A stretch of DNA of 64,000 nt from Pseudomonas entomophila. GTDB lineage: Bacteria > Pseudomonadota > Gammaproteobacteria > Pseudomonadales > Pseudomonadaceae. The first letter of the stretch is position 1. Each line of letters opens with the position of its first letter. The notes under the pieces are model-generated. The model made no database searches. It was not told the DNA's origin and worked only from the letters and a program-made list of their open reading frames with translations. The stretch spans positions 4,887,001-4,951,000 of the forward strand of contig NZ_CP063832.1 of the NCBI RefSeq assembly GCF_023277925.1, given 5' to 3'. Shown piece by piece: positions 45,444-62,000 of the stretch. The position numbers and the translations under genes were made by a program.

Positions 45444-48400
45444 CCGACGCCAAGAAACGCGAACCCCAGGTCGCCGTCGCCCCGCTCAACACCATCGACG
45501 CCAAGGACGTCGGCCGTGGCGCCGCCGCCTTCGATGCCTGGCTGCAATCGGTCAGCGGCGGCTACGTCACCCTCGAACGGATCAAGACCGTGGCCGGCGC
45601 GCTGCCGGTGGTGGGCAACATCATGGCCCTGGTCGACGCCCTGGGCGACGTGGTGACCCTGGTCAAGAGCAAGAACCGCCAGCTGCTCGACTGGGTGAGC
45701 CTGGGCATCAACCTGATCGGCGTGCTGCCGGCGCCACCGACCATGGCCGCGGCGCGCATGAGCCTGCGCCCGACCCTGTTCCTGGTGCGCCAGGAGCTGC
45801 GCAACAGCGCCAAGATGCTACTGGGCGATTCGCTGATCCAGGTGCTGATCGGCCATCTCAACGCCACCATCGCCGGGACCATCGACGATTTCGTAGCCAA
45901 GGCCCAACCGAAGATCGCCAGCATTCTGGCCGACGCCGGTGCGCTGGGCACCAAGATGACCAGCGAGATCGCCACCGGCCTTGAAAAAGTGGTCAAGGGC
46001 CAGCTTGATGCCAAGGGCGACCGCGCAGCCGCCAGCAAACAGATGTCCGCCGCCGCCGACAAGTTGCTCAACGACCCCAAGGCGGCCTTCAGCAACTTCT
46101 TCGGTGCGGTGCACAGCGCCTACAAGGCCGCCGGTAAAGGGCTGGCCAACAGCGCCACGAGCAAGCTGCTGCCGGATCAGATCAAAGCCAAGGTCTTGGC
46201 CAACACCAGTCAACTACGCGCGCTGGGACCGGAGATGGCCCGACAGTTTGCCAAGCTGGCGGACCCTGCGACGCAGATGAGCATCGGCTGGATGCTGACG
46301 GTGCTGGGCGGGGCGGTGAAGGGCTTCCGCAAGCGCAACAAGAACGGGCAGTCAGGGGTGAGCAAGCCGGGGACGGTGACGCAGGTTTCGCGTGAGAAAG
46401 GTAAAGGCGAGCTGGCGGCCTCAAGTGCCCAGGCCAAGGCCAAGCAAACACCAAGCCCCGTAGAGCCCAGCTGCCCTATCCCGAGACCGACCCCAAAATC
46501 CACCACCAAGCGCAGTATCAGCTTTGCCTTAGGCTCGGAATTCATCATCCACACGGATTTCAGTCTGCCCGGTGCATTCCCGATTGAGTGGCAGCGCATC
46601 TACCACTCGCGGCTGGCCGAGTACGACAAGGGCTGTCTGGGCGCACGCTGGGCCACCGAATTCACCACCCGCATCGACGTGGTTGGCAAGGGGCTGCTGT
46701 TCCATGACTTCGATGGCCGTAGTCATGAGTTCGAACTGCCCAAGGTCGGCAAGTCCTTGTTCAACGCCATCGAAGACCTGCTTTTGGTGCGTCGCAGCGA
46801 AAGCGAGCTGGTGATCTGCCGTGGCTTCGTGCGCAAGGAGTACTACCTGCGTGTGGGAGATCGCTACTACCTGCGCAAGATCCTGCTGCAGAACGACGCG
46901 GGCTGCATGCTGCACTACGAACATCACCACGAGGGGCGTCCGGTACTGTCGGACATCATCACCTTCCAGGGGGATGTGAAGGATGTGCTGCGCCACCTCG
47001 GTACGCTGATCGATGAGCAGGGGCATATCACCGGGCTGTGGGAAATGCGCGATGGCCAGCCACTGCGCCAGCTGTGCGCCTACCATTACGATGATCAGGG
47101 CGACCTGATCGCCGCCCAGGACGAGCATGGCGCCGCCCGGCACTACCAGTACCAGAATCACCTGGTGACCCGTTACACCGACCGTACTGGTCGTGGCATG
47201 AACCTGCAGTGGGACGGTAGCGCGTTCGACGCCAAGGCCATCCGCGAATGGGCTGATGACGGCAGCTACGACACCCGCCTGGAGTGGGACGAGAACATTC
47301 GCCTCACCTACGTCACCGATGCCCATGGCCAGGAGACCTGGTACTACTACGACATCCTCGGCCACCTGTACCGTGTGCGTTACCCGGATGAACGCTCGGA
47401 ATGGATTTTCCGTGACGAGCGCAAGAAGGTGGTGCGTCACGTTCATACCGATGGCACCGAAGACCGCTACGACTATGACGAACAAGGCAGTGTCATTCGC
47501 CATATCCGCGCCGATCACAGCCAGGTCCACATCGCCTATGACGACCGTCGTCATCCGATCAAGATTCGCGACGCCGAAGGCGGCTTGTGGCTGCGTGACT
47601 ACGACCAGAAGGGCAACCTGGTCGAGACCACCGATCCATTGGGCAACAAGACCGAGTACGCCTACACCCCTTCGGGCCTGATCAAGGCGATCAAGGACGC
47701 CAACGGCAACGAGAAGAAGCTGGCTTACAACGCGGCGGACCAGTTGATCGAGTACACGGATTGCTCGGGCAAGGCCCGCCAGTGGGCATACGATGACCTC
47801 GGTCAGATGGTGTTGTTCACCGATGCAGCGGGCAACAAGACCGTTTACGAGTACCGAGCCGGGCAATTGTGCAAAGTCATTCGCCCGGACAACGCCGAAG
47901 AAGGTTTCGAGCGTGATGCCGAAGGCCGCCTGTTGGCTCATGTGGATGCGCTGGATCGCTGCACGACATGGACCTATACCGCCGCTGGGTTGCTTTGTGA
48001 ACGTGTGGATGCGACCGAGCACACCTTGCGTTATCGCTGGGACAAGCTGGGGCGGTTGACGGGGCTGGAAAACGGGAACGAAAGCAAGGCGAGTTTCCTG
48101 TACGACCCTGTCGGCCGTTTGCTGGAGAAAACGGGTTTCGATGGTTTGGTGACGCGCTACCAGTACCATCTGGAGAGCGGCAATCTAGCCAGTACTCAAG
48201 TGGGGCAGCGCCGTACAGAGGTCGTTTTCGATGCATTGGGGCGTGTCATTTCGCGGGTCGCCATGCTCGCGGGCCAGCGTCAGGAAGAGTCGTTCTCCTA
48301 CGATGGCAACGGCAATCTGGTCCAGGCGGTCAACGCCGCCAGTAAACTGCAATGGTTCCACGACGAGGCGGGCAATCTGACCCGCGAGCACCAGTATTAC

Positions 48401-50131
48401 CTCGGTACCGAGGTGCCGATGGTCGCAGTCTGGCAGCACGAGTACGACGCGCTGAACCTGCGCACCGTGACGATCCGCCCCGATGGGCACAAGGTCAGCG
48501 TGCTCACCTACGGCAGCGGCCACGTGCTGGGCATGACTCTCGATCAGCATGAGTTGCTGGCCTACGAGCGCGATGACCTGCACCGTGAAGTGGTGCGCCA
48601 TCAGGGCAACCAGTTGATGCAGACCCAGGCCTGGGACCCGGCAGGGCGGCTGCAGGAGCAGTTGCTGGCAAGCCAAGATGGCCAATCCATGCTGCTCAAG
48701 CGGCAGTATCAATACGATGCGGTCGGCCAACTGACGGATATTCATGACACCCGCCGTGGCCACCTGGCCTATCAATACGATCCTGTGGGGCGTCTTCTGC
48801 AAGCCACCAGCCGGCTTGGTATCGAGACCTTCGCTTTCGACCCCGCTGGCAACTTGCTCAACGACAAGACCCAGCAGCTCAACCGTCCGCTGGAAAGCGA
48901 CCTGCGCCGTAACAAGCTGATGGACAACCTGTTGCGTGAATACGCCGGGACTCATTACCAGTACGACGAACGTGGCAATCTGATCCATCGCTTGCGTAAC
49001 GGCGAACATGCCCACTTAGGCTGGGATCTATTCGACCGCTTGGCGCGCTACGACGATGGCAAGCTTAGTGTGGTTTACAGCTACGACGCCCTGGGTCGTC
49101 GTTTGCACAAGCATTCCACTGCCAAGCACCAAGATGATCCACGTGCGGGTAGCGGCTGGAACGAAACGCAGCGGGCCAAGCGACAACGAGAATTGGGCTG
49201 TGGTTACACCTTGTATGGGTGGGATGGCAATACGCTCGCTTGGGAGAGTTCACCGCCGCAGGATGAGGGTGATACTGGGCGGACGGTGCATTACCTGTAT
49301 GAACCGGGCAGCTTTGTGCCGGTGGCCCAGGCGTTGCGCAAGCAAGCGATCCGGTTGCTGCGACAACCGGACTGGAGCGAGCGTGACTACAGCATCGATG
49401 ACGATCCCCTGTGGCAGTGCGAGGTTAAGCCCCAGCCGTTAGATGCCTTGGCCTGGTACCAGTGTGACCGGATTGGCACACCGATGGAGCTGACTGGGCC
49501 TGACGGTGAAATGGCCTGGGCCGCGCAGTACAAGGCGTGGGGCGAGGTTCGTGAGGAGCGCTCGGCCTGGGCCAAGCAAAATGGCTTGAGCAATCCAATT
49601 CGATTCCAAGGCCAGTACCACGATCATGAAACCGGCCTGCACTACAATCGACACCGTTACTATGATCCGGCGGTTGGCCGTTTCATCAGTCAGGACCCAA
49701 TAGGGTTTACCGGTGGATTGAACCTCTACCAGTACGCCCCTAACCCTACCGGATGGGTGGATCCACTTGGTTTGACACCCAAGTCTACATGTGGGTTAGA
49801 TGACAGCATTCCAGTGGTCGAGGTTAGCAGGAGCCGTTACCCAGAGTCTGCCAAGCACATTGAGGACGCGCAGGCTGCCGGGCATCCGTCCGTGCTGACG
49901 ATTGATCGAGAGGGGGCGAAGGATAATCGCAGGGAATCGCTCAAAGGTGTCGATACCGTTCCAGGGCATGATCGTGATGAATACCCCCCAGCGATGTTTA
50001 CCGAAGGGGGCGCGGGCGCCTCGATTCGCCATATCACGTCCTCTGACAACCGAGGAGCGGGATCCTGCTTTGGCGCGCAATGTCGGCCTTATGCCAACGG
50101 GACGCAAGTTAGGTTTGAGGTAGTTGATTAG
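45440..50131 (+). CDS. Rhs-family T6SS effector with NucA/NucB-type DNase tip
   Basis: The 1563-residue product has an N-terminal region with two hydrophobic segments (about residues 52-75 and 84-110) but no PAAR domain, a linker (about 300-355), an Rhs/YD-repeat shell (about 360-1440) that ends in the conserved WVDPLGL (Asp1441), and a 118-residue variable tip. The tip contains HDRDEYPPA (His1510 on), TEGGAGAS and SSDNRGAGS, the hallmarks of NucA/NucB non-specific DNases. It is predicted to enter rival cells through the T6SS and cut DNA. Base composition falls in the tip, a usual sign of tip exchange. Confidence 0.93.
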   Translation: MTDAKKREPQVAVAPLNTIDAKDVGRGAAAFDAWLQSVSGGYVTLERIKTVAGALPVVGNIMALVDALGDVVTLVKSKNRQLLDWVSLGINLIGVLPAPPTMAAARMSLRPTLFLVRQELRNSAKMLLGDSLIQVLIGHLNATIAGTIDDFVAKAQPKIASILADAGALGTKMTSEIATGLEKVVKGQLDAKGDRAAASKQMSAAADKLLNDPKAAFSNFFGAVHSAYKAAGKGLANSATSKLLPDQIKAKVLANTSQLRALGPEMARQFAKLADPATQMSIGWMLTVLGGAVKGFRKRNKNGQSGVSKPGTVTQVSREKGKGELAASSAQAKAKQTPSPVEPSCPIPRPTPKSTTKRSISFALGSEFIIHTDFSLPGAFPIEWQRIYHSRLAEYDKGCLGARWATEFTTRIDVVGKGLLFHDFDGRSHEFELPKVGKSLFNAIEDLLLVRRSESELVICRGFVRKEYYLRVGDRYYLRKILLQNDAGCMLHYEHHHEGRPVLSDIITFQGDVKDVLRHLGTLIDEQGHITGLWEMRDGQPLRQLCAYHYDDQGDLIAAQDEHGAARHYQYQNHLVTRYTDRTGRGMNLQWDGSAFDAKAIREWADDGSYDTRLEWDENIRLTYVTDAHGQETWYYYDILGHLYRVRYPDERSEWIFRDERKKVVRHVHTDGTEDRYDYDEQGSVIRHIRADHSQVHIAYDDRRHPIKIRDAEGGLWLRDYDQKGNLVETTDPLGNKTEYAYTPSGLIKAIKDANGNEKKLAYNAADQLIEYTDCSGKARQWAYDDLGQMVLFTDAAGNKTVYEYRAGQLCKVIRPDNAEEGFERDAEGRLLAHVDALDRCTTWTYTAAGLLCERVDATEHTLRYRWDKLGRLTGLENGNESKASFLYDPVGRLLEKTGFDGLVTRYQYHLESGNLASTQVGQRRTEVVFDALGRVISRVAMLAGQRQEESFSYDGNGNLVQAVNAASKLQWFHDEAGNLTREHQYYLGTEVPMVAVWQHEYDALNLRTVTIRPDGHKVSVLTYGSGHVLGMTLDQHELLAYERDDLHREVVRHQGNQLMQTQAWDPAGRLQEQLLASQDGQSMLLKRQYQYDAVGQLTDIHDTRRGHLAYQYDPVGRLLQATSRLGIETFAFDPAGNLLNDKTQQLNRPLESDLRRNKLMDNLLREYAGTHYQYDERGNLIHRLRNGEHAHLGWDLFDRLARYDDGKLSVVYSYDALGRRLHKHSTAKHQDDPRAGSGWNETQRAKRQRELGCGYTLYGWDGNTLAWESSPPQDEGDTGRTVHYLYEPGSFVPVAQALRKQAIRLLRQPDWSERDYSIDDDPLWQCEVKPQPLDALAWYQCDRIGTPMELTGPDGEMAWAAQYKAWGEVREERSAWAKQNGLSNPIRFQGQYHDHETGLHYNRHRYYDPAVGRFISQDPIGFTGGLNLYQYAPNPTGWVDPLGLTPKSTCGLDDSIPVVEVSRSRYPESAKHIEDAQAAGHPSVLTIDREGAKDNRRESLKGVDTVPGHDRDEYPPAMFTEGGAGASIRHITSSDNRGAGSCFGAQCRPYANGTQVRFEVVD

Positions 50132-50776
50132 ATGAAAGAAAAACTGGAAAAACTCCTGTCAATCGGTAGTCAGGCACTGGGTGACCCGGTCATGGCATCA
50201 CTGCCCTTTCTTTCCAAGGCAGGAGAGGGCAGAGGGGCTGAGCTTGAAGCGCTGCTGAAGCACAAGAATGGCTTCTATGCCTTTGCGGGCGCTTTGCACG
50301 TCTTGCCGGCTAGCCACAGACACGTAGAGACGGGCGTTACACTGGAAGCCTGGAACTCGCCGGCTTTATGGCGCTCGGGATACGGTTTGAATGGCAATGA
50401 CATCGTGTTCTTTGCCGAAGACTTGTTCGGGATTCAGTTCTGCCTTTACGGCAATGAGGTTCTGAGTTTCGATCCCGAGACGGCGAAGTTCTCATTCTTT
50501 GCCGACAGTCTCGAGGAGTGGGCCTCCAAGATCCTGGCGGATTACGACTATGTCACTGGATATTCACTGGGCCATGCATGGCAAACAAAGAATGGCGCAT
50601 TGGAGCAAGGCTACAGGTTGTTGCCAAAAGTGCCGTTTGTACTGGGTGGCAAGTTTGAGGCCGACAACCTGTACGCTTGTGATGCAACGGAAGGCATGAA
50701 GATGAGGGGCGAGCTGGCTCAGAAAATCAAAGACTTGCCTGATGGTGCGGAGTTGAAATTGCAAGTCGGTGATTGA
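50132..50776 (+). CDS. Probable immunity protein to the Rhs DNase
   Basis: The 214-residue product starts at the base after the rhs stop, the standard position for a cognate immunity gene. It is soluble, with an acidic N-terminal half and the pattern FGIQFCLYGNEVLSFDPETAKFSFFADSLEEWASKI (about residues 91-130), which resembles the SMI1/KNR4 (SUKH) superfamily often found as toxin immunities. The family call is by eye; the role rests mainly on position. It would block the nuclease tip in the cytoplasm. Confidence 0.75.
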   Translation: MKEKLEKLLSIGSQALGDPVMASLPFLSKAGEGRGAELEALLKHKNGFYAFAGALHVLPASHRHVETGVTLEAWNSPALWRSGYGLNGNDIVFFAEDLFGIQFCLYGNEVLSFDPETAKFSFFADSLEEWASKILADYDYVTGYSLGHAWQTKNGALEQGYRLLPKVPFVLGGKFEADNLYACDATEGMKMRGELAQKIKDLPDGAELKLQVGD

Positions 50777-51099
50777 CACGCGGTCCATCCAACGGTTTCC
50801 ACTAGGGCCAGTCCGTCGTTCTCATACAGGGCTCCCAACGGTCGATTCGACTGGCCGGCCCCTATTGGGGCCGGTCGGCTCGTAATTGCGTGTCATCAGC
50901 AAATGACGGGAACAAAGACCGATGAGCTCGAACAGCGGCGTTCACAGTGCAGTGGCTTAAGCACGCGTGTGTACTCGTCACGCAATTGATCGCGATAGAG
51001 ATTTCAAACGGATTGACAGCCTAATAGCCTCCAATCCCTCGCCATTTCAGGTTTTCATCATCGGCAGCGACGCCTCCCCTTTGACACGGAGTTCACCCC
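50777..51099 (+). other. Intergenic region between immunity and PAAR genes
   Basis: This 323-bp gap contains no credible gene; an open frame running through it into the PAAR gene in another phase is a shadow. It holds a perfect hairpin, CCGGCCCC (50855-50862), TATT, GGGGCCGG (50867-50874), without a T-run. The lower G+C content and lack of homology suggest a remnant of an exchanged effector tail region. Confidence 0.5.
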
Positions 51100-51363
51100 A
51101 TGAAAGACATCATCCGCCTTGGCGATTCCACCACCCACGGTGGCAAGGTGCTCGGCTCCTTCGGCAACACCAACGTCAACGGCAAGCCTATCGCCGGTGT
51201 CGGGCATATGGTCAGCTGCCCGCTGTGCAAGGGCGTGTTCCCGATTGTCGAGGGCAGCGCCACCTACAACGTCGACGGCACGCCGGTGGCCCTCGACGGG
51301 CACAAGACCGCTTGCGGCGCGGCGTTGATTGCCAGTGGGCCGAAGAGTGGTGTGGCCAGCTGA
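51100..51363 (+). CDS. PAAR-domain spike tip protein
   Basis: The 87-residue product is a stand-alone PAAR protein (RLGDSTTHGGKVLGSF, GVGHMVSCPLCKGVFPIVEG, LDGHKTACGAALIAS), with His and Cys residues that can bind the metal at the tip. PAAR proteins sharpen the VgrG trimer. Here PAAR is a separate gene, not fused to the Rhs N-terminus, so tip and cargo are probably assembled from separate chains. GGAG precedes the ATG. Confidence 0.93.
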   Translation: MKDIIRLGDSTTHGGKVLGSFGNTNVNGKPIAGVGHMVSCPLCKGVFPIVEGSATYNVDGTPVALDGHKTACGAALIASGPKSGVAS

Positions 51364-51475: not shown

Positions 51476-52855
51476 TCAGCGCAACCCTGTAGGAGCGGGT
51501 TTACCCGCGAAAGCGTCGGAAGCTTCACCCTTGTATTCGCGGGCAAGCGGTGAGCCGAGCAGTCGGTTGACCTCATGCAGGTCGCTTTCCATCAGGCCGC
51601 CCACGGCTGCCTTCAAGCGCAGTTGAGCCTGCAAGGTGTCGTAGCGCGCTCGGGACAGCTGTTGCACGATGTCGGTGAAACGCCCCTGGGCTTCCAGCAC
51701 GTCGATGCTGACGCGCACCCCCACCCGGTACCCCAGCCGGTTGGCCTCCAACGCCGACCTGGCCGAGATTCTCGCCGCCTCCAGCGCCTGCACCTGGGCC
51801 CTGCCATCGAGTACGCCCAGCCAGGCTTCACGCACCTGCAACTGCGCGGTGCGCTTGGCTTCCTCGTACTGGGCCTCGCCCTGGGCACTCAATGCCTGGG
51901 CCTGGCGCACCGCTGAACTGGGGCGGCCACCCGCATACAGCGGCAGGCTCAGGCGCAGGCTGACACTGGTAAGGTCGCTGCGCGCGGCGCTGATGTTCGG
52001 CTGCTGCTGCACACCTTGGCTTGCCACCAGGTCGAGCGTGGGCAGGTGCTCGGCCTTGCGGCTGCGTACTTCGTTCTGTGCGATGGCCAGGCGCAAGGCT
52101 TGCGTCTGGACTTCGTAGGCGTCCTGCTGCGCCGCAGCCAACCAGGCGTCGATATCGGTGGGGAGCGGTGGGGCCAGACTCACGCCCTCGCGCAGGCCCA
52201 GCAGGGGCCCAGGTGTTCGGCCGATGATCCGCGCCAGTAGGTGGCGGGCCAGTTCGACCTGGCTGCCGGCCTTGATCGATGCAGCCAGGGCCGCGTCGGC
52301 GCTGGCTTGTGCCTCGTGTACATCGGCGATGCTGACGTTGCCCAGCTCGAAATGCTTGCGGGCGCTGGCCAGTTGCTGGATATCGGCGGCATGTTGCTGG
52401 CGCAAGGCATCCACGCTCGCCTCCGCGCTCAGGATCGCGAAGTACGCCTCGGCCACGCGCAGCAGCAGCGCCTGGCGCGCTTCGTGGTAACGGCTGATGG
52501 CCAGGGCGGTCTGCTGGCTGCCTTGCTGGTACTGCACCCAGCTCTTCCAGCGGAACAGCGGTTGCACCAGTTGGAGGCTGTAGGTCTGGCTCTGGCGGCG
52601 ATAGGTTATTGCCTCGTTGTCGAGCTGGTACTGGGTGCGGTTCCAGGCGTTCTGCGCCTGCAGGGACAGTTCGGGCAGCAGGCCGGCGCGAGCTTGTACT
52701 TCGGCTTCCATGCCGGCCTGGTGTTCGGCCTGGGCCGCCGACCATTGCTGGTCGTTGAGCAGGGCGTCCTGGTAAATGCTGAGCAGGTCGTCGGCCTGGG
52801 TGGGCAGCGCCAGGCACCCCAGGGCCAAGGCGAGCAGGCGTGCGGCAAGGGGCAT
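51476..52855 (-). CDS. TolC-family outer-membrane protein of the microcin exporter
   Basis: From ATG 52855 the product has 459 residues: a signal peptide (MPLAARLLALALGCLALPTQA) and two outer-membrane efflux protein repeats (about residues 25-225 and 235-440) typical of TolC-like tunnels. It would complete the type I exporter formed with the HlyD and ABC proteins of this locus. The ATG overlaps the ABC stop by one base. The last 10-12 residues are encoded by a REP element, so the original C-terminus may have been different. Confidence 0.88.
   Translation of the reverse strand: MPLAARLLALALGCLALPTQADDLLSIYQDALLNDQQWSAAQAEHQAGMEAEVQARAGLLPELSLQAQNAWNRTQYQLDNEAITYRRQSQTYSLQLVQPLFRWKSWVQYQQGSQQTALAISRYHEARQALLLRVAEAYFAILSAEASVDALRQQHAADIQQLASARKHFELGNVSIADVHEAQASADAALAASIKAGSQVELARHLLARIIGRTPGPLLGLREGVSLAPPLPTDIDAWLAAAQQDAYEVQTQALRLAIAQNEVRSRKAEHLPTLDLVASQGVQQQPNISAARSDLTSVSLRLSLPLYAGGRPSSAVRQAQALSAQGEAQYEEAKRTAQLQVREAWLGVLDGRAQVQALEAARISARSALEANRLGYRVGVRVSIDVLEAQGRFTDIVQQLSRARYDTLQAQLRLKAAVGGLMESDLHEVNRLLGSPLAREYKGEASDAFAGKPAPTGLR
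51486..51519 (-). repeat. REP-type palindrome (copy 6), inside the 3' end of tolC
   Basis: CCTGTAGGAGCGGGTTTACCCGCGAAAGCGTCGG is an inverted REP. It falls within the last codons of the minus-strand tolC-like gene and encodes its final residues (…FAGKPAPTGL). The pair separates the T6SS payload from the microcin locus. Confidence 0.8.
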
Positions 52856-54942
52856 CAGGCAGGCTCCGGCAGGGCTGCGCGCCGCCAGTCCTCGATGATC
52901 GCTCCTTTCTCCAGGCGAACTACACGGCTGGCCAGGGCAATGGTTTCCTGGCGATGGGCGATGCTGACGCGGGTCATGCGCATGCGTTGCATGACTTTCG
53001 CCACGCATTGCTCACTGTGCAGGTCCAGGTGGCTGGTGGCTTCGTCCAGGGCCAGGATCTTCGGTTGCCTGTACAGCGCCCGGGCCAGCAGCAGGCGTTG
53101 CCGCTGGCCACCGGACAGGCCGCTGCCCATCTCCGCCACCAGAGTCTGGTAGCCCATGGGCATCTGGCTGATCGTGTCGTGGATATGGGCATGCCGCGCC
53201 GCTGTTTCGATCCCGCCCTGATCGGCGTGGGGATCGAAACAGGCGATGTTCTCGGCGAGGGAGCCGGCCAGCAGATGGTCATCCTGCATCACTGCTCCCA
53301 CCAAGCTGCGCAACCCCTCGACCCCCAGTTGGCGCACCGGGATGTCGCCGATCCGTATTTCACCTTCGCTGGGTTGCAGCAGGCCGAGCATCAGCTTGAA
53401 CAGCGTGGACTTGCCGCAACCCGATGCGCCGATGATCGCCAGTGAGTCGCCGGCGGCAATGGTCAGGGACAGGTTGCGCAGGATCCATGGCTCGCCCTCG
53501 GCATAGCGGAAGGAAACATCCCGGAACTCCAGGCAGGGCTCGATGCGCTGCACGTCGGTTTCCAACTGCGCCCTCGGCTCGGCGGGTTCCAGGGCGATAT
53601 CCGCCAGGCGCTCGGCATGCAGCGACAGCATCCTGATCTCGACCCCCAGGTCGATCAGCTTGCTGGCGCGCCCGGTGAACTGGCTCTTGTAGGCCAGGAA
53701 GGCGAGCAACATGCCCAGCGACAACCCGCCCTCCAGCACCGCCAGGCCGCCGACATACAGCAGCAACATGCCTTCGATGCCAAAGATCAGGGTATTGAGG
53801 CTGGCGAATGCCAGCAGCATCTTCTGGGTGGCGACATCGCGGTTCTGCACATCGGCCAGCAGGTTCTGCCAGGTGGCCAGACGCGCCGAGGTCATGTTGA
53901 ACAGCTTCAGAGGCATGACCGTGCGGATGGTTTCGAGGAAGTACGAGTTCTCCCGGGCGGCCAGCACGATTCGCTCTTCCGAGGCATTGCGCAGGGGGTG
54001 GTAGAAGGCCAGGCGCAGGGCCGCGTACAGCAGCACCGCCACCCCCACGATGCCGGTCAGCGTGGTGCTGTACAGCAGCATCATCCCCAGGGTAATGAAG
54101 GTGACCAGGCCATCCAGCACCACGGTGACGGCGCCATTGGTGAACACCGTGCGAATGGCCGCCAGCGACTGGAAACGCGCGGTGATGTCCCCCAGTTGGC
54201 GCTTTTCGAAGAACGGCCATGGCAGGCGCAACAGGTGGCTGAAGAGGTTTCCCGACCATTGCAGGGCCAGTTGCTGGTTAAGGCGCAGGTTCATCCAGCC
54301 CCGGGCCATGCGCAGGGCAAAGTCGACCAGCAGCAACAGGCACCCCCCCATCACGGCCAGCAGCAGCAGGTGGCGGTCGGCGGAAACCAGCGCTCCGTCG
54401 ACCACCCATTGCGTCACTTGGGGCGAGAGCAGCGCCACCACCTCCAGCGCCAGGGCCAGCACCAGGATGTTGCCCAGTGCGCGCTTGAGCCCCTGCACCC
54501 GGCCGGTCAATGCCCTCAGCCGCAGTCGGGGTTTGTGCTGGGCGGGCACGAATTCGGCATTGGGTGAAAGTTCCAGGGCTACCCCGGTGAAGTGCCGGGA
54601 GGCTTCCTCCAAGGTGACCACCAGGCGACCACGGGCCGGGTCGAGTATCACCAGGCGGCCAGCCTTGAATGCCTCCAGTACCACGAAATGGTTCAGGTTC
54701 CAGTGCAGGATGCAGGGGGTACGCAGCTGGCGGATTTCCTCCAGCTCAAGGCGCAAAGGCCGGCAGGTGAACGCCAGGTGCTGGGCATGGCGGATCAGCT
54801 GCGCCAGGCTGGTGCCCTTGCTTGAAACGGCAAAGCGCCGGCGCAGGGTCGCCAGGTCCAGATGTAGGCCATGGGCGGCGGCGATCATCACCAGGCAGGC
54901 CAGGCCGCACTCCTGGCTTTCGGCCTGCAGGGTCACACGCAT
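52855..54942 (-). CDS. Peptidase-containing ABC exporter (C39 family)
   Basis: The 695-residue product has an N-terminal C39 peptidase domain (about 1-130) with Cys12 in QECGLAC, His85 in LNHFVVLEAF and Asp101 in DPARG, the complete catalytic set. Six membrane helices (about 150-430) follow, then an ATPase domain with Walker A GASGCGKST, signature LSGGQRQR and Walker B ILALDEATSHLD. Such proteins cut double-glycine leaders and export the mature peptide (CvaB/LagD type). The substrate is almost certainly the precursor at 56500-56811. An in-line start at ATG 54942 fits the family N-terminus. Confidence 0.95.
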   Translation of the reverse strand: MRVTLQAESQECGLACLVMIAAAHGLHLDLATLRRRFAVSSKGTSLAQLIRHAQHLAFTCRPLRLELEEIRQLRTPCILHWNLNHFVVLEAFKAGRLVILDPARGRLVVTLEEASRHFTGVALELSPNAEFVPAQHKPRLRLRALTGRVQGLKRALGNILVLALALEVVALLSPQVTQWVVDGALVSADRHLLLLAVMGGCLLLLVDFALRMARGWMNLRLNQQLALQWSGNLFSHLLRLPWPFFEKRQLGDITARFQSLAAIRTVFTNGAVTVVLDGLVTFITLGMMLLYSTTLTGIVGVAVLLYAALRLAFYHPLRNASEERIVLAARENSYFLETIRTVMPLKLFNMTSARLATWQNLLADVQNRDVATQKMLLAFASLNTLIFGIEGMLLLYVGGLAVLEGGLSLGMLLAFLAYKSQFTGRASKLIDLGVEIRMLSLHAERLADIALEPAEPRAQLETDVQRIEPCLEFRDVSFRYAEGEPWILRNLSLTIAAGDSLAIIGASGCGKSTLFKLMLGLLQPSEGEIRIGDIPVRQLGVEGLRSLVGAVMQDDHLLAGSLAENIACFDPHADQGGIETAARHAHIHDTISQMPMGYQTLVAEMGSGLSGGQRQRLLLARALYRQPKILALDEATSHLDLHSEQCVAKVMQRMRMTRVSIAHRQETIALASRVVRLEKGAIIEDWRRAALPEPA

Positions 54943-54981
54943 GCTTCAGGCTCCGGCTTTATCAGGCAGGACATGGCCAAT

Positions 54982-56139
54982 TCAGGGGCGGATCAGTTCG
55001 AGGATGTCCTGTCGGCAGAGCTCGAACACCAGCGTTCGCAGTTTCGTCGGGTCAAGCTCGGGCAGTGCGGTTGTCAGTTGCTGCACGGTAATGCCGGGTG
55101 AGTGCTCGATCTGGCGCACCAGGCGCAACGCCGTTTCGTCGAGCTGGAGTCGGGTACCGTTGGCGATCAGGTGGTTGCGGGCCACGGACAGGGTGTTGTT
55201 GGCCGCCAGCCGTAGCACCGAGTCGTCGGGCAGTTGGTTGACGGTGCTGTTACCGAAAACGTCGATGGCCAGCGGCGTCTCGACACGTTGGGCCGCGTCG
55301 AACTGTTCCATGAAATGTTGATAGTGGGCTGGGTCGCTGATCAGCCCTGCGAGATGCGAGGCCAGCAACGACAGGGTTTCGCTGTCCTGCTCGAAGGTGC
55401 TCATCGCCTGCCGCGCCGCGGCCAGCTCCGGCAGCTTCTGCAGGGACCATTGCACATAGTCCAGGGTGTTGGCCGGGAATGTGCCGACGGAGAGGTGGAA
55501 GGTTTCCTCCTCGAAGGGCAGCGGGTTGTGCCACCAGCCTCGTGGCAGGTACAGGACGTCGCCGGGCTCGAGGACGATGTCCATGCACGGTTCGGCGGGG
55601 CAGGGGTAGTCCTGTTCCAGGTCCTTGCTCTGCTGCATGTACAGCGGGTCGGTGAAACTGGGTTCGTAGATGATCCAGCGTTTGCGCCCCATCAACTGGA
55701 TGGCAAAGATGTCGCGGGTGTCCCAATGGGTCTGGAAGGAGGCCTGGCGGCCGAATGCGGCGTATGCGCTGCTGACGGTCTGCCGACCGGTGAGCTGCGC
55801 CACCTGGCGGGCAAACCCATGGACCTTGGGTTCGTTGACGATCTTGTTGGCGATCAGCGTTGCACCGTTTTTCATGCGCTCATAGACCGCCGACTTGTTC
55901 AGGCGGTGCCGGACCATGCCGACGTCATGGAAGCTATCGATGTACTCGTGCTTGGGCACCAGGCCGTTGTGCAGGATCTTGAAGTCGGGGGACTCGACAT
56001 TGTTGCGCGTGATGATCTGGTTGGCGTCAGCCCAGGAGAAATTGGCTGAGGGTGTGAATGCTTGTTTTATGAAGAGCGGTTTCTTGCCTTGATAGTGTTC
56101 GGCAAATGCTTGCTTTGAGACTTTGAAATCAATGATCAC
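54982..56139 (-). CDS. JmjC/cupin Fe(II)/2-oxoglutarate oxygenase
   Basis: The 385-residue product starts at GTG 56139 and belongs to the RoxA/Cupin_4 (JmjC) family of protein and peptide hydroxylases. The iron triad is His138-x-Asp140 (THWDTRD) and His204 (PRGWWHNP); GRKRWIIYEP at 151-160 is a typical strand. A C-terminal winged-helix-like part (about 300-385) is present as in RoxA. It lies between the immunity-like gene and the exporter, so its substrate is probably the microcin precursor and not ribosomal L16. The GTG start has a weak GAG site. Confidence 0.85.
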   Translation of the reverse strand: MIIDFKVSKQAFAEHYQGKKPLFIKQAFTPSANFSWADANQIITRNNVESPDFKILHNGLVPKHEYIDSFHDVGMVRHRLNKSAVYERMKNGATLIANKIVNEPKVHGFARQVAQLTGRQTVSSAYAAFGRQASFQTHWDTRDIFAIQLMGRKRWIIYEPSFTDPLYMQQSKDLEQDYPCPAEPCMDIVLEPGDVLYLPRGWWHNPLPFEEETFHLSVGTFPANTLDYVQWSLQKLPELAAARQAMSTFEQDSETLSLLASHLAGLISDPAHYQHFMEQFDAAQRVETPLAIDVFGNSTVNQLPDDSVLRLAANNTLSVARNHLIANGTRLQLDETALRLVRQIEHSPGITVQQLTTALPELDPTKLRTLVFELCRQDILELIRP

Positions 56140-56220
56140 GACGCACTCTAAATAACAATTGTGTTGGGCAGGGCTGTCCAGGCTGGATTTGGCTTTAAGT
56201 GGGTGTAGGTAGAAAATTAG

Positions 56221-56433
56221 TTACTTTGCCAGGTCGAAGAAAACGGCGATGGGGTAAGACCAGCGATCTGATAGTGCAGCGGCAATGATGGCGGGTATGC
56301 CAACCATTAGCGGCATCTCGACGGTTTTTGATAGCGTAATACCCAAGAGCCGTAAAAGACCTTTTATTATCAGTGCCCCGCCCAGGACCACCGCCACACA
56401 CAGGAGTAATCTGACCAGCTCGACATTGTCCAT
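56221..56433 (-). CDS. Small membrane protein, probable microcin immunity
   Basis: The 70-residue product (ATG 56433) has two hydrophobic stretches (about 5-31 and 40-55) separated by a short polar turn, and ends FFDLAK. Small two-helix membrane proteins next to class II microcin precursors usually protect the producer. I recognise no family. It lies 66 bp downstream of the precursor, with a hairpin between, and 81 bp before the oxygenase gene. Confidence 0.7.
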   Translation of the reverse strand: MDNVELVRLLLCVAVVLGGALIIKGLLRLLGITLSKTVEMPLMVGIPAIIAAALSDRWSYPIAVFFDLAK

Positions 56434-56447
56434 TGCACACGTTCTCC

Positions 56448-56484
56448 CACGGCTATCGGCATTCTGGAAACACCGATAACCGTG
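56448..56484 (-). promoter_or_regulatory. Hairpin between precursor and immunity genes
   Basis: CACGGCTATCGG (56448-56459) and CCGATAACCGTG (56473-56484) pair with one internal mismatch across a 13-nt loop. In the minus-strand transcript it sits 16 nt after the precursor stop. With no T-run it is more likely an mRNA stabiliser or partial terminator that raises precursor output over the downstream genes. Confidence 0.55.
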
Positions 56485-56499
56485 CAGGTAGGGTTGGGG

Positions 56500-56811
56500 T
56501 TAGCGGTTGTAGTTGGTGCCGGCGGCATCCATACCACTGGTGATGAAGCCGCCGATCATGCCGCCGTAGAAGGCTGACTGCCCGCCACCGATCGCCATGG
56601 AGGTGCTGGCGCCAATGCCTGCGGGGCCGGTAAAGAAGCCGACTGCGGCACCGCCGGCCACCGTACCGATAAAGCCGTTCATCGAGCCGCCACCCGCTGC
56701 GGCTTCATAGCCGATGTAGCCCGCACCCGCGACAACGGCACCGGCGACAGCACCGGGGATTCCGAAACCACCCGCGACGACTTCCAGGTCTTCAACTTTA
56801 ATTTCTTTCAC
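56500..56811 (-). CDS. Class II microcin/bacteriocin precursor with double-glycine leader
   Basis: The 103-residue product starts at GTG 56811 behind GAGGA (8-nt spacing). Its 15-residue leader MKEIKVEDLEVVAGG fits the double-glycine consensus: Ile -12, Asp -8, Leu -7, Val -4, Gly -2, Gly -1. The 88-residue core (starting FGIPGAVAGAVV) is very rich in Gly and Ala with GxxxG-like spacing, has no Cys or His, and ends GTNYNR, so it is likely a membrane-active peptide without disulfides. It lacks the Ser-rich siderophore-attachment tail of class IIb microcins. Exporter, adaptor and candidate immunity are all nearby. Confidence 0.88.
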   Translation of the reverse strand: MKEIKVEDLEVVAGGFGIPGAVAGAVVAGAGYIGYEAAAGGGSMNGFIGTVAGGAAVGFFTGPAGIGASTSMAIGGGQSAFYGGMIGGFITSGMDAAGTNYNR

Positions 56812-57028
56812 GCGATCATCCTCATCATTGTTGTGATGGCCGATATCAGTAGCTTGTTTTTATTGAACGATCAGGTTGGCTGGTGTGGCATCTTCTGTGT
56901 GGGTTGCAGGCTCAGAGGCGTCACTGCAATGCCCAGGTAGTTTTTGAAAAAACACTGGCATGATCGATCGGCGGCGATAATAGTTGTGTGTACGGGTTGG
57001 CTGTATCCGACAGATGTAGGGGGCGCGG
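56812..57028 (-). other. Leader/promoter region of the microcin precursor
   Basis: This 217-bp gap precedes the precursor on the minus strand. It contains a palindrome GTTTTT-GA-AAAAAC (56940-56953) and an A+T-rich stretch near 56850-56870, but I see no clear -35/-10 or sigma-54 pair. The gap suggests that the precursor has its own transcription start, separate from hlyD and the regulator. Confidence 0.45.
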
Positions 57029-57253
57029 TCAGTACCGGGTTTTCGAGGCGATCAACTCCATGCGGGTACGGACTCCGCGCTTGCGCAAGAGCGCTGAGAC
57101 ATGATCGCGCACGGTGTAGTCGCTAATATTCAGGTCGAGTGCAATCTGTTTGTTGGTTTTCCCAAGTAGCAGCAACTGCAAAACATCCGACTCTCTTCTG
57201 GTCAGGTCCATAACGGTTCCGTAATACTTTTCTTTGTTAGATGTCCCAGTCAC
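57029..57253 (-). CDS. Solo LuxR/GerE-type helix-turn-helix regulator
   Basis: The 74-residue product (GTG 57253) is almost entirely a GerE DNA-binding domain: LTRRESDVLQLLLLGKTNKQIA, then the recognition region LNISDYTVRDHVSALLRKRG. There is no receiver, autoinducer or PAS domain, so its activity must be set by its level or by a partner. It lies 24 bp downstream of hlyD and next to the precursor, making it the probable local regulator. A shorter form from the internal Met15 is possible. Confidence 0.85.
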   Translation of the reverse strand: MTGTSNKEKYYGTVMDLTRRESDVLQLLLLGKTNKQIALDLNISDYTVRDHVSALLRKRGVRTRMELIASKTRY

Positions 57254-57277
57254 CCGGGTTTCGCTCCCAGGCCTGAA

Positions 57278-58570
57278 TCAATTGTGCAGCCTGCCCGTCA
57301 CCGAATAGAGCGGTTCCAGTGCCCATTCATAGAGCCGTCGTCGGTCCTGGAGTACATCCGCTTCCAGCAGCATGCCTGCCTGCAGCGGTTGAGGCTGCCC
57401 GTACAAGGCGATGTCGGGAGAGTCGAGTGTCACGGTGACTCGGTAGAACAGTTCGGCCGACGCGCCTTGCCCTTGCAGGGCGGTGGCGATGTGCGCGGGT
57501 AGCTCCTGCGTGGCATAGGGGCTCTTCGCAACATCGACGACGCGACCGTGGGCCATGCCGAACTTCTGGTATGGATAGGCGGCATAGCGCATCAAAACCT
57601 TCTGGCCCGGCTCGATAAAGCCTGCCTGACGCGGCGCGGCATACAGGTGGGCATACAAGGTGGCGCCCTGGGGGATCAGGCTGGCCAGTAACGCACCGGC
57701 ATTCACCTGCTGCCCCACCTGCGCACTCAGCCCGGTCAGAGTGCCAGCGTAAGGCGCCACATTGATCAACTCGCTACGCGCCTGGTTTTCGGCCTGCTCC
57801 TGCTTGACCAGTGCGGTGGCGCTGTCGGCCTCGCTCATCTCGCTACGATGACGCAGCTCGGCTTCCTGGCGCTGAGCCAGCAACCCGGTGCGTTCGCGCT
57901 CCAGGCTGGCGCGTGCCCGTTGGTTGCCCTGCAACTGCCCCTGCAGGGTCAACCAGTCGCCCTCGGCCTGTTGCAACTGCGCCACTGAAATGAAACCGGC
58001 ATCGACCAGCTCCTGCTGGCGTCCCAGTTGCACTTTTGCCAGTTCCGCACGGCGTTGCAGCAGGCGGACTTCCTCGGTGAACTGCTGAAGCTCACTGGCA
58101 ATCGTCGCCAGGCGAGTGTCGAGCATGTGCAACTGGCCTTTCAGGCGCTCGTCCGCCAGTGTTCGGTTGCGCAGCAACAGGCTCAGGCGCTGCCCCAACT
58201 GATCGGCGATCATCGCCTGTGTCCCACCAGCCCCGGACAAGCGTTCGCCGGAGATCACGAACAGTACATCACCCTTTGCGACCTGCTGACCTTCCACCGC
58301 ACGAACCTGTGTCAGCAAGCCCGCCCCGCTGGCGGTCAGGCGCAGCATGCCGTGCTCCGGCATCAACAGGCCGCGCACAGTGGCTTTGCGGGTATAGGTT
58401 CCAAAGTAGGCGAATGCCGCGATCAACACGATCAGCAGGCCGGCCACCAGGGCGGCGACGCGGTACCCCCACGGCTGATGGATCAAGACATTGCCGAAGC
58501 GCTGTTCCTGAACTGCCGCGACGGCTTCCGGGCGGAACAGGGGAGTGGCGGCGGCTGAAGGGGCGGGCAT
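57278..58570 (-). CDS. HlyD-family membrane fusion protein of the microcin exporter
   Basis: From ATG 58570 the product has 430 residues: a short cytoplasmic N-terminus, one membrane helix (about 40-59), a barrel-sandwich lipoyl half (ATVRGLLMPEHGMLRL), a long helical hairpin (about 120-260) and the C-terminal beta domain. It bridges the ABC exporter and the TolC-like protein, like CvaA for microcin V. A TTG one codon upstream is a possible alternative start. It is the first gene of the minus-strand locus. Confidence 0.9.
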   Translation of the reverse strand: MPAPSAAATPLFRPEAVAAVQEQRFGNVLIHQPWGYRVAALVAGLLIVLIAAFAYFGTYTRKATVRGLLMPEHGMLRLTASGAGLLTQVRAVEGQQVAKGDVLFVISGERLSGAGGTQAMIADQLGQRLSLLLRNRTLADERLKGQLHMLDTRLATIASELQQFTEEVRLLQRRAELAKVQLGRQQELVDAGFISVAQLQQAEGDWLTLQGQLQGNQRARASLERERTGLLAQRQEAELRHRSEMSEADSATALVKQEQAENQARSELINVAPYAGTLTGLSAQVGQQVNAGALLASLIPQGATLYAHLYAAPRQAGFIEPGQKVLMRYAAYPYQKFGMAHGRVVDVAKSPYATQELPAHIATALQGQGASAELFYRVTVTLDSPDIALYGQPQPLQAGMLLEADVLQDRRRLYEWALEPLYSVTGRLHN

Positions 58571-59026: not shown

Positions 59027-62000
59027 ATGGACCTCAACCGTCGGCAATTCTTCAAGGTCGCCGCCGTCGGCCTTGGAGGCTCGAGCCTCGCGGCGTTGGG
59101 CATGGCCCCGACACCCGCGTTCGCCGAGCAGGTGCGCCACTTCAAGCTGGCGCACACCAAAGAAACCCGTAATACCTGCCCCTACTGCTCGGTCGGCTGC
59201 GGCCTGATCATGTACAGCCAGGGTGACGCGGGCAAAAACGTCAAACAGAACATCATCCACATCGAGGGCGACGCGGATCATCCGGTCAACCGCGGCACCC
59301 TGTGCCCGAAAGGCGCGGGCCTGCTGGACTTCATCCACAGCCCCAGCCGCCTCAAGTACCCCGAGGTGCGTAAACCGGGCAGCAACGAATGGACCCGCAT
59401 CGATTGGGACGAAGCCCTCGACCGCGTCGCCGACCTGATGAAACAGGACCGCGACGCCAACTTCATCGAGAAGAACGCCCAGGGCCAGACGGTCAACCGT
59501 TGGCTCACCACCGGCTTCCTCGCCGCGTCGGCCGCTTCCAGCGAAGCGGGCTACATGACGCACAAGGTGATCCGTTCGCTGGGCATGCTGGGGTTCGATA
59601 ACCAGGCGCGTGTCTGACACGGCCCGACGGTGGCAAGTCTTGCCCCGACGTATGGCCGTGGCGCGATGACCAATCACTGGTCTGACATCGCCAACGCAAA
59701 CCTGGTCCTGGTGATGGGCGGCAACGCCGCTGAAGCGCACCCGTGCGGCTTCAAGTGGGTGACCGAAGCCAAGGCGCACAACAAGGCGCGGCTGATCGTG
59801 GTCGACCCACGGTTTACCCGTACCGCCTCGGTGGCCGACTACTACGCGCCGATCCGTACCGGCAGCGACATCGCCTTCATGGGCGGGCTGATCAACTACC
59901 TGCTGAGCAACGACAAGATCCAGCACGAGTACGTGCGCAACTACACTGACGTGTCGTTCATCGTCAAAGACAGCTATGGCTTCGAGGATGGGCTATTCAG
60001 CGGCTACGACGCGGCCAAGCGCACCTACGCCGACAAGTCAGGCTGGGGCTACGAGCTGGGCGAGGACGGCTTCGCCAAGGTCGACCCGACGCTGCAGCAC
60101 CCGCGTTGCGTCTATCAATTGATGAAGCAGCACTACAGCCGCTACACGCCGGAGCTGGCGAGCATGACCTGCGGCATGCCCCAGGACCAGATGATGAAGA
60201 TCTGGGAGGAGATCGCCACCTGCTCGGTGCCGGGCAAGACCATGACGATCCTCTACGCCCTGGGCTGGACCCAGCACTCCATCGGCGCGCAGATCATCCG
60301 CAGCGCGGCCATGGTGCAGTTGCTGCTGGGTAACGTCGGCATGCCGGGCGGCGGGGTCAACGCCCTGCGCGGGCACTCCAACATCCAGGGCCTGACCGAC
60401 CTGGGGCTGCTGTCGAACTCGCTGCCGGGCTACCTCACGCTGGCTGGCGACGCCGAGCAGGACTACGCCGCCTACATCGACAAGCGCGCCTCCAAGCCGC
60501 TGCGCCCGGGGCAGCTCTCCTACTGGCAGAACTATGGCAAATTCCACGTTAGCTTGATGAAGGCCTGGTACGGTGCCAACGCCACGGCACAGAACAACTG
60601 GGGCTACGACTGGCTGCCCAAGCTCGACGTGCCGGCCTACGACGTGCTGCGCATGTTCGAGATGATGGGCCAGGGCAAGGTCAACGGCTACATGTGCCAG
60701 GGCTTCAACCCGATTGCCGCGCTGCCGGACAAGAACCGCGTCACCGCGGCCCTGGCCAAGCTCAAGTGGCTGGTGATCATGGACCCGCTGGCCACCGAAA
60801 CGTCCGAGTTCTGGCGCAATGCCGGCGCGTTCAACGATGTCGACACGGCCAACATCCAGACCGAGGTAATACGCCTGCCCACCACCTGCTTCGCCGAGGA
60901 GGACGGCTCGCTGGTCAACAGCAGTCGCTGGCTGCAGTGGCACTGGAAAGGCGCCGACGGCCCGGGTGAAACCCGCACCGATGTGCAGATCATGAGCGAG
61001 CTGTTCCTGCGTCTGCGCAAGCGTTATCAGGCCGAAGGCGGCGCCTACCCCGACCCGATGCTCAATCTCAGCTGGCCGTACAAGGTCCCGGAAGAGCCTT
61101 CGCCCGAGGAGCTGGCCAAGGAGATGAACGGCTGGGCGCTCAGCGACCTCACCGATGCCACCGGCACCACCCTCAAGGCCGGCCAGCAGTTGGCCGGCTT
61201 CGCCCAGATGAAGGACGACGGCAGCACCGCGTCCGGCTGCTGGATCTTCGCCGGCAGTTGGACCGAGCAGGGCAACCAGATGGCCCGGCGCGACAACAGC
61301 GACCCGTACGGCATGCACCAGGTGCAGAACTGGGCCTGGGCCTGGCCAGCCAACCGGCGCATTCTCTACAACCGTGCTTCCAGCGACCCGCAAGGCAAGC
61401 CGTGGGACCCGGAGAAGAAGCGCCTGGTGTGGTGGAACGGCAAGGCCTGGACCGGCACCGACGTGCCGGACTTCAAGGTCGACTCGCCACCGGAAGCGGG
61501 GATGAACCCGTTCATCATGAACCCCGAGGGCGTGGCGCGGTTCTTCGCCGTCGACAAGATGGCCGAGGGGCCGTTCCCCGAGCACTACGAGCCGTTCGAG
61601 ACCCCCATCGGCATCAACCCGCTGCATCCGCAGAACAAGAAGGCCACCAGCAACCCGGCCGGGCGGATCTTCGATTCGGTGTGGGGCACCCTGGGCACGC
61701 ACGACGAGTTCCCCCATGCGGCGACCACCTATCGGCTGACCGAGCACTTCCACTTCTGGAGCAAGCATTGCCGGCTCAACGCTATCGCCCAGCCCGAGCA
61801 GTTCGTCGAGATCGGCGAGGTGCTGGCCAACGAGAAAGGCATCAAGGCCGGCGACCGGGTGCGGGTGTCGAGCAAACGCGGGCATATCGATGCGGTGGCG
61901 GTGGTGACCAAGCGGATCCGTCCGCTGCAGGTCAACAACCAGACCGTGCACCAGATCGGCATCCCGTTGCACTGGGGCTTCACCGGCAGCACGCGGCACG

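Follow-up and report, generated by a model that had tools for sequence, protein, structure and literature searches.

Why should a locus built for the export of a small peptide carry a JmjC-type oxygenase? The question is raised by a 64,000-nucleotide stretch of the Pseudomonas entomophila genome (assembly GCF_023277925.1, contig NZ_CP063832.1, positions 4,887,001 to 4,951,000; hereafter the window), in which seven open reading frames (ORFs) of the minus strand, all located in the ORF list of the window, occupy positions 51476-58570. The initial annotation of this DNA described them as a full export and biosynthesis set, and all seven are present at those positions; Pfam and NCBIfam searches gave the domains as named, among them the C39-peptidase exporter and the membrane-fusion protein by which class II microcins are recognised (Table 1). 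The locus probably encodes a microcin of class II type together with a JmjC enzyme that oxidises the microcin's C-terminal G-T-N-Y tail. It is this tail (AGTNYNR), absent from the initial annotation, that provides the strongest evidence for a tie between oxygenase and peptide.

The precursor consists of the 15-residue leader MKEIKVEDLEVVAGG, read from a GTG start and ending in GG, and of an 88-residue core with a computed monoisotopic mass, unmodified, of 8058.8 Da. Its leader is of the double-glycine (GG/GA) type, as the aligned homologues also indicate, and the core is rich in Gly and Ala (26 G and 17 A, together 43 of 88 residues) and devoid of Cys, both as first described, as well as of Lys and His. 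It ends in MDAAGTNYNR. The precursor had no match in Pfam, NCBIfam or PHROG, and a database search returned 11 homologous proteins with 47-98% identity, the 98% match being a sequence cluster; in the alignment with these 11, AAG(T/V)(N/D)Y stands at the C terminus or close to it, and four sequences have it twice.

Loci for comparison (labelled L, and their genomes G) were collected by scanning one genome per species for JmjC relatives, of which 324 were found and the best 80 of the 324 used; near-duplicate loci were removed and a few loci from other searches added before counting. The strict counts leave out the near-duplicates L013, L044, L095, L146 and L147, loci L001-L009, and L091, L093 and L094, which are other cupin/JmjC loci. 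With a close JmjC defined by a score of at least 225, the strict set comprises 56 close-JmjC loci, 25 distant-JmjC loci and 50 loci that have a C39-type ATP-binding cassette (ABC) exporter and no JmjC gene. The motif G-x-(N/D)-Y was found by the strict scan in 52 of 71 double-glycine (GG) peptides at the close-JmjC loci, in 1 of 17 at the distant-JmjC loci, and in 0 of 20 at the 50 loci without JmjC, only 15 of which yielded any GG peptide. The first and last of these proportions differ with a Fisher p of 1e-9, a value inflated by relatedness, and shuffled cores contained the motif in a mean of 2.5 and a maximum of 8 of 71. A DGD-type tail shows a different distribution, being present in 12 of the 17 distant-JmjC peptides versus 0 of 71 close-JmjC peptides and 0 of 20 without JmjC. 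GG peptides beside more distantly related JmjC genes have mostly dissimilar bodies and end alike (SGTDYNNAAGTNYN, DGTDYCGDGTDY, AGTNYCNSSGSNYCH, DGNDYCRDGGNY). A permissive scan, in which duplicates were kept, placed a motif peptide at 41 of 50 loci that have both a close JmjC and an ABC gene, at 6 of 11 that have a close JmjC but no ABC gene, at 1 of 25 distant-JmjC loci and at 4 of 50 loci without JmjC, the last four looking spurious. As a separate observation, GG peptides of Methylomonas and Acinetobacter beside distant JmjC genes (L066, L068, L070, L073, L076 and L083) mostly end in EDGDG and represent a second tail type.

Two G-x-x-Y copies occur in 32 of 53 distinct motif cores, and three in one, within the stretch examined, the doubling often being C-terminal. 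At position +2, 72 of 87 copies have N or D and the remaining 15 have S, G, A, H or Y; of these 15, those from L049 and L054 seem to match by chance; counted copies of the GEDYK or GENYK type, for instance in the second L030 peptide, are probable background. Since Tyr and Gly were fixed by the search pattern, and peptides had been picked for at least one G-x-(N/D)-Y copy, the count is no proof of an invariant Tyr. The motif lies near the core start in the Moraxella loci L050, L056 and L060, and in L050, L060 and L062 a real motif is present there in addition to the copies counted. Two candidate targets were considered separately: Asn/Asp could not be taken as the certain target because of the 15 copies with other residues at position +2, and Arg, the target in ROXA, was rejected because tails from other genera lack the Arg with which the window peptide ends.

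In the JmjC tree, from which short JmjC pieces were omitted, 46 of the 55 rows of one clade (SH-like approximate likelihood-ratio support, SH-aLRT, 98) are motif-labelled, and all 10 DGD rows fall outside it; labels were set by eye for L018, L052, L053 and the window (motif) and for L064, L074 and L080 (DGD). JmjC clade and tail type are linked in this tree, and individual pairs of loci illustrate the extent to which the rest of the peptide may differ. L038 and L058 share 89% identity in JmjC and 92% in the tail with 38% in the core body, and the corresponding values for L055 and L090 are 79%, 83% and 29%; L039 and L040 are alike throughout, and L035 and L036 differ in the tail too (JmjC 84%, body 32%, tail 45%). 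In many other bacteria the oxygenase accompanies peptides that are unlike except for a short tail motif, and it therefore probably modifies this tail before export; judged by these sequence associations, the oxygenase belongs with the peptide.

Whether precursor and oxygenase co-occur across Pseudomonas was a check suggested by the initial annotation, and they do: a JmjC relative at E<=1e-60 was found in 5 of 398 Pseudomonas genomes, at 6 places, all 6 of which hold a precursor homologue nearby, a pairing that is more than chance. A precursor profile search gave matches in 11 of the 398 genomes; five of these are the JmjC genomes, with the tail present in 7 of 7 places. Intact precursors from Pseudomonas genomes without JmjC (no match at E<=1e-60 anywhere in the genome, nor one at E<=1e-3 up to about 8 kb away) have the tail in 0 of 5 cases and keep leader and body; they end in GSGA, NTGA, NSAA, GGGA and LTGS, and no tail-like sequence follows their stop codons. 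As these five demonstrate, a precursor may have this body and yet no tail. Omitted from them are a second, weak profile match at L153 (E 1e-4, no tail) and a leaderless fragment ending in AGTNYH, which adjoins a TolC gene in a sixth JmjC-less genome, G058 (L164), and is presumed to be a decayed remnant. At L161 (G026), a different cupin-like ORF, recognised by eye, lies about 0.5 kb from the tail-less precursor.

The Fe(II)/2-oxoglutarate oxygenase announced for the locus has a JmjC_2 domain with its catalytic residues intact by alignment: H138, D140, K153 and H204 are invariant in 89 aligned sequences, the window's own included, and we take them, from the NO66 alignment and from what is known of NO66, to be the Fe ligands (H138, D140, H204) and the 2-oxoglutarate lysine (K153). 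By sequence the protein matches structure chains of NO66, MINA53, YcfD and JMJD5; a profile search added FIH. The matches to YcfD, NO66 and MINA53 span the catalytic part only, with the best stretches within residues 111-289, and in the sequence alignments to the NO66 and YcfD structures the Fe and 2-oxoglutarate residues are intact. The ROXA-like_wH match is weak yet accepted (24.1 bits, cut-off 22). No N-terminal signal sequence is apparent by eye. A database search returned 638 relatives, and proteins of Pseudomonas, Burkholderia, Achromobacter, Moraxella and Cellvibrio are among the matches listed. The same genome contains a third JmjC_2 gene (G000:C1:1069535-1070656; L149:9536-10657) near ORFs that look HlyD-like and ABC-exporter-like by eye; it adjoins a 204-aa ORF, lysozyme-like by eye and ending in GQDQD, whose product may be a type I secreted effector of larger size that JmjC modifies.

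How the parts would work together may be set out as follows. The precursor would be made with its double-glycine leader, and a cytoplasmic JmjC enzyme, using Fe(II), O2 and 2-oxoglutarate, would hydroxylate a residue of G-x-(N/D)-Y, either Asn100 or Tyr101. Known JmjC relatives act on protein side chains, in most cases hydroxylating the beta carbon, which would by analogy be the most likely site here too. The C39 exporter would then cut after GG and, helped by HlyD and the linked TolC, secrete the 88-residue peptide with a mass of about 8059 Da, to which each hydroxylation would add 16. Given that no signal sequence is evident in the enzyme and that the leader is cut during C39 export, modification should precede export, in agreement with the order originally proposed, namely oxidation before leader removal. 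The 70-aa membrane protein would protect the producer, and the tail probably serves target-cell binding or entry. The gene content, the conserved catalytic residues and the tie between JmjC clade and tail type are observed; from hydroxylation onwards, to export, protection and tail action, the biochemistry is what we infer. The 70-aa protein, with two hydrophobic segments, is a candidate immunity protein; it had no match in Pfam or PHROGs and just two in NCBIfam, both far under cut-off. Small membrane ORFs adjoin the precursors in L010, L011 and L013, and in L010 such ORFs follow each of two precursors, an arrangement that fits immunity.

Several findings weigh against the proposal that the oxygenase acts on the tail. 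The strict scan found no motif in 19 of 71 GG peptides and none at 13 of 56 close-JmjC loci. It undercounts, as L018, L023, L033, L052 and L053 have the motif by eye or in another scan, and L051 has a variant, but seven loci (L027, L029, L047, L048, L059, L061 and L092) lack it by eye too. L063 has the motif, yet its JmjC falls outside the clade. Over 764 locus pairs the mean identity was 0.34 for the body and 0.53 for the tail, a comparison in which short tails inflate identity. Relatedness inflates p-values, and the score cut for a close JmjC was picked after the data had been seen. Finally, C39 exporter and HlyD are both absent within about 8 kb of the five JmjC-less Pseudomonas precursors, so that this contrast alone cannot separate the enzyme from the exporter.

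The last point leads to the alternative that survives best, although we consider it unlikely: the tail could serve the exporter or a target-cell receptor as a recognition signal, with the JmjC enzyme acting on a different substrate or elsewhere on the peptide. An ABC gene scoring at least 300 bits to the window's exporter is present at 46 of 56 close-JmjC loci (and at 10 of 25 distant-JmjC loci), the five tail-less Pseudomonas precursors are also those without a linked exporter, and class II microcins have been described with a C-terminal uptake domain, all as expected of such a signal. If the exporter were the partner, however, the motif should not be missing from all 20 GG peptides of the 50 C39-ABC loci without JmjC; conversely, L034 and L032 have a tailed precursor beside JmjC with neither HlyD nor a C39-type ABC gene in their 21 kb. 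These two sets of loci point to the enzyme as the probable partner of the tail. Moreover, the tail type changes with the JmjC clade, and some Moraxella peptides have the motif near the core start.

Whether the JmjC/cupin protein is itself the immunity protein, as proposed for McaB of Acinetobacter baumannii Mcc17978, deserves mention because of a published experiment that counts against tail oxidation: a plasmid carrying mcaB only protected a strain from which the locus had been deleted (PMC10333792). For the window this role seems very unlikely to us, as Fe and 2-oxoglutarate residues invariant in all 89 aligned sequences would be odd in a protein that only binds, no N-terminal signal is apparent by eye, the small membrane ORFs beside the precursors are better immunity candidates, and a single JmjC accompanies several GG peptides in L035, L036 and L060. 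It is hardly credible that the enzyme is a ribosomal-protein hydroxylase (ROXA/YcfD) lying in the locus by happenstance: the JmjC_2 and ROXA-like_wH matches, and the label 'ribosomal protein L16 Arg81 hydroxylase' that one source gives to some relatives, would fit, but relatives of the window enzyme recur with precursors and exporters over many genera, and the same genome has a better-scoring JmjC_2 gene (C1:945063-945410; 148.4 bits versus 107.0 for the window gene) that reads ROXA-like, so that the window enzyme, judged by score, is not the genome's ROXA orthologue.

With tail oxidation as the preferred explanation, the locus can be compared with known systems. The initial annotation did not recognise the gene combination as described, and this has to be corrected: the A. 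baumannii locus mcaABCD (Mcc17978), published in 2023, comprises a microcin with a GA leader, a cupin-like gene, HlyD and a SunT-type exporter (PMC10333792). Compared on the basis of that description, the window has precursor, cupin-like gene, HlyD and C39 ABC exporter together. The two differ in order, HlyD being upstream of the precursor in the window and downstream of the cupin-like gene in mcaABCD, and the four genes named for mcaABCD include neither a TolC nor a GerE regulator. In the published account the cupin-like gene was taken to confer immunity, a plasmid with it having protected the deletion strain, and the terms hydroxyl and JmjC do not occur in the main text of the paper (PMC10333792). 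A related A. baumannii plasmid locus, L090, has its genes in the mcaABCD order, and its JmjC belongs to the window's clade; its precursor ends in AGNDYCEDGGNY, has two motif-like copies and lies just downstream of a small membrane ORF. McbC of Moraxella catarrhalis plasmid pLQ510 likewise comes with HlyD and a C39 exporter (PMC2761928), and this plasmid, with its published bacteriocin genes mcbA-mcbB-mcbC-mcbI, carries a JmjC of the window's clade (L092 39-1120); there, the JmjC is split into two ORFs of 252 and 108 aa, McbC lacks the motif, and the term cupin does not occur in the main text of the McbC paper.

Class IIa microcins such as MccV share precursor, exporter, adaptor and probable immunity gene with the window; they have disulfides as sole post-translational change and use the conserved chromosomal TolC (PMC10233263). 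Class IIb siderophore microcins (MccE492, MccH47) have a GG leader, a C39 exporter and a C-terminal motif on which modifying enzymes encoded in the locus act, but this motif is Ser/Gly-rich and siderophore-carrying, unlike the G-x-(N/D)-Y motif and single oxygenase of the window (PMC10233263, PMC13101503). The Ser/Gly-rich C terminus of about 10 residues is missing from the window core, which ends otherwise, and no siderophore-attachment enzyme is encoded among the seven genes of the locus, the rest of the genome lying outside this search. ROXA/YcfD, NO66 and MINA53 (chains 4ccl, 4y4r and 2xdv, matched by sequence) share the JmjC core and differ in their partner genes, the host genome having its own ROXA-like gene. 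BpmG of biphenomycin biosynthesis is a JmjC-domain hydroxylase that likewise acts on a ribosomal peptide, hydroxylating one residue (Orn), but it works after a multinuclear non-heme iron-dependent oxidase (MNIO) and an arginase on the short core motif FHAFRF (PMC12257519); its relative PbsQ has been called cupin-like. JmjC homologues in 'RiPP-like genomic contexts' (RiPP, ribosomally synthesised and post-translationally modified peptide) were mentioned in 2025, and no literature tying a JmjC enzyme to a microcin tail was found in a search that left subscription journals and preprints mostly uncovered.

Other cupin/JmjC plasmid loci were noted alongside. Pantoea and Salmonella plasmids (L093, L094) have a distant cupin/JmjC gene beside a major facilitator superfamily (MFS) transporter, the Pantoea plasmid also having YcaO and TfuA-like genes, possibly another type of JmjC-tailored RiPP. 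Escherichia accounts for 25 of 95 matching plasmid records, and on the one inspected, the small E. coli plasmid pHUSEC41-3, a distant JmjC gene occurs together with an ABC transporter and with a 232-aa ORF whose end is rich in Gly and Cys (L091:4339-7555).

A more specific extension of the hypothesis, which we hold to be doubtful, is that the tail is oxidised to an iron-binding group (3,4-dihydroxyphenylalanine, DOPA, from Tyr, or beta-hydroxy-Asn/Asp) and would act as a ribosomal siderophore mimic, entering through TonB-dependent catecholate receptors of the Fiu/PiuA kind. It is suggested by the receptors reported for Mcc17978, namely the catecholate receptors Fiu and PiuA, and weakened by the listing of an unmodified class IIa microcin as also Fiu-targeting (PMC10333792), as well as by the lack of a convincing Fur box upstream of HlyD, where the best match was 10/19, which is background level. 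We therefore make no claim of iron control of the locus by Fur. A Fur-box-like match of 13/19, a score reached by 4 of 63982 window positions, lies close to the precursor start.

What is new in these observations is the substrate logic, a JmjC clade matched to a tail type, the gene combination being known and close to mcaABCD. Class II microcins have been described as unmodified save for disulfides, or as siderophore-bearing; if our proposal is correct, a JmjC oxygenase with its matching tail would define a third, widespread kind, and the ribosomal-oxygenase-like enzymes would gain a new substrate. JmjC together with G-x-(N/D)-Y would then be a sequence handle for precursors that elude homology searches, the Acinetobacter cupin-like gene would have a different, testable reading, and screens that express precursors without the oxygenase might overlook activity. 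If the siderophore-mimic extension held, microcins with a self-made siderophore tail would range from those of Pseudomonas and Acinetobacter to those of Neisseria and Herbaspirillum.

The accessory genes vary between loci. JmjC loci with an ABC gene come from genera including Marinobacter, Marinomonas, Neisseria, Xenorhabdus, Photorhabdus, Acinetobacter, Psychrobacter, Delftia and Methylomonas. The dedicated TolC put forward in the initial annotation holds for Pseudomonas-type loci, most of which have a linked TolC, and is not a family-wide trait; the GerE regulator is present in many of the same loci, and its homologues lie near HlyD in several Pseudomonas-type and Marinomonas relatives. For the window's TolC, the most likely start is the ATG at 52855 and not that of the longer, 510-aa ORF: from this ATG, which overlaps the stop codon of the ABC gene by 1 nt, the N terminus is signal-peptide-like by eye. 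A second exporter of the C39 ABC type, this one without JmjC, is encoded elsewhere in the same genome (G000:C1:2878791-2880842; L096); no recognised GG peptide was found within 8 kb of it. L047 and plasmid records NZ_CP119140 and NZ_CP119142, all labelled Neisseria gonorrhoeae, have a JmjC relative, that of L047 being in the clade; the nearby GG peptides of L047 have no G-x-(N/D)-Y tail.

Table 1. Features of the microcin-type locus in the window, with the evidence for each.
Feature	Positions	Strand	Evidence
HlyD-type periplasmic adaptor	57278..58570	-	HlyD_3 3.8e-14 (Pfam); TIGR01843 1.2e-31, under its curated cut-off
Solo LuxR/GerE helix-turn-helix regulator, 74 aa	57029..57253	-	GerE 1.6e-16 (Pfam)
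Precursor peptide, GTG start, 15-aa double-glycine leader and 88-aa core	56500..56811	-	ORF; 11 homologues
Tail motif G98-T99-N100-Y101 (inside AGTNYNR), proposed JmjC target	56509..56520	-	G-x-(N/D)-Y tracks the JmjC gene
70-aa protein, two hydrophobic segments, candidate immunity protein	56221..56433	-	Hydropathy; small membrane ORFs at the precursors of relatives
JmjC (JmjC_2/ROXA-like) Fe(II)/2-oxoglutarate oxygenase, 385 aa	54982..56139	-	JmjC_2 3.9e-30; ROXA-like_wH 3.8e-5
C39-peptidase ABC exporter (peptidase-containing ABC transporter, PCAT), 695 aa	52855..54942	-	Peptidase_C39 3.2e-34; ABC_membrane; ABC_tran 2.1e-31; QECGLAC N-terminal
TolC-family outer-membrane channel, 459 aa from ATG 52855	51476..52855	-	OEP 4.6e-47; TIGR01844 over its cut-off (both computed on the 510-aa reading)

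On one side, the locus is flanked by three genes (window 45440-51363). One, recognised by eye, encodes an Rhs protein with a C-terminal end that looks NucA/NucB-type nuclease-like by eye, the 214-aa ORF that follows it is without a Pfam match and is a possible immunity gene, and the third is a PAAR gene (Pfam) at 51100-51363. On the other side is a formate dehydrogenase gene (by eye) with a SECIS_3 element at 59612-59670; a TGA divides it into two ORFs, the pattern expected of a selenocysteine codon.

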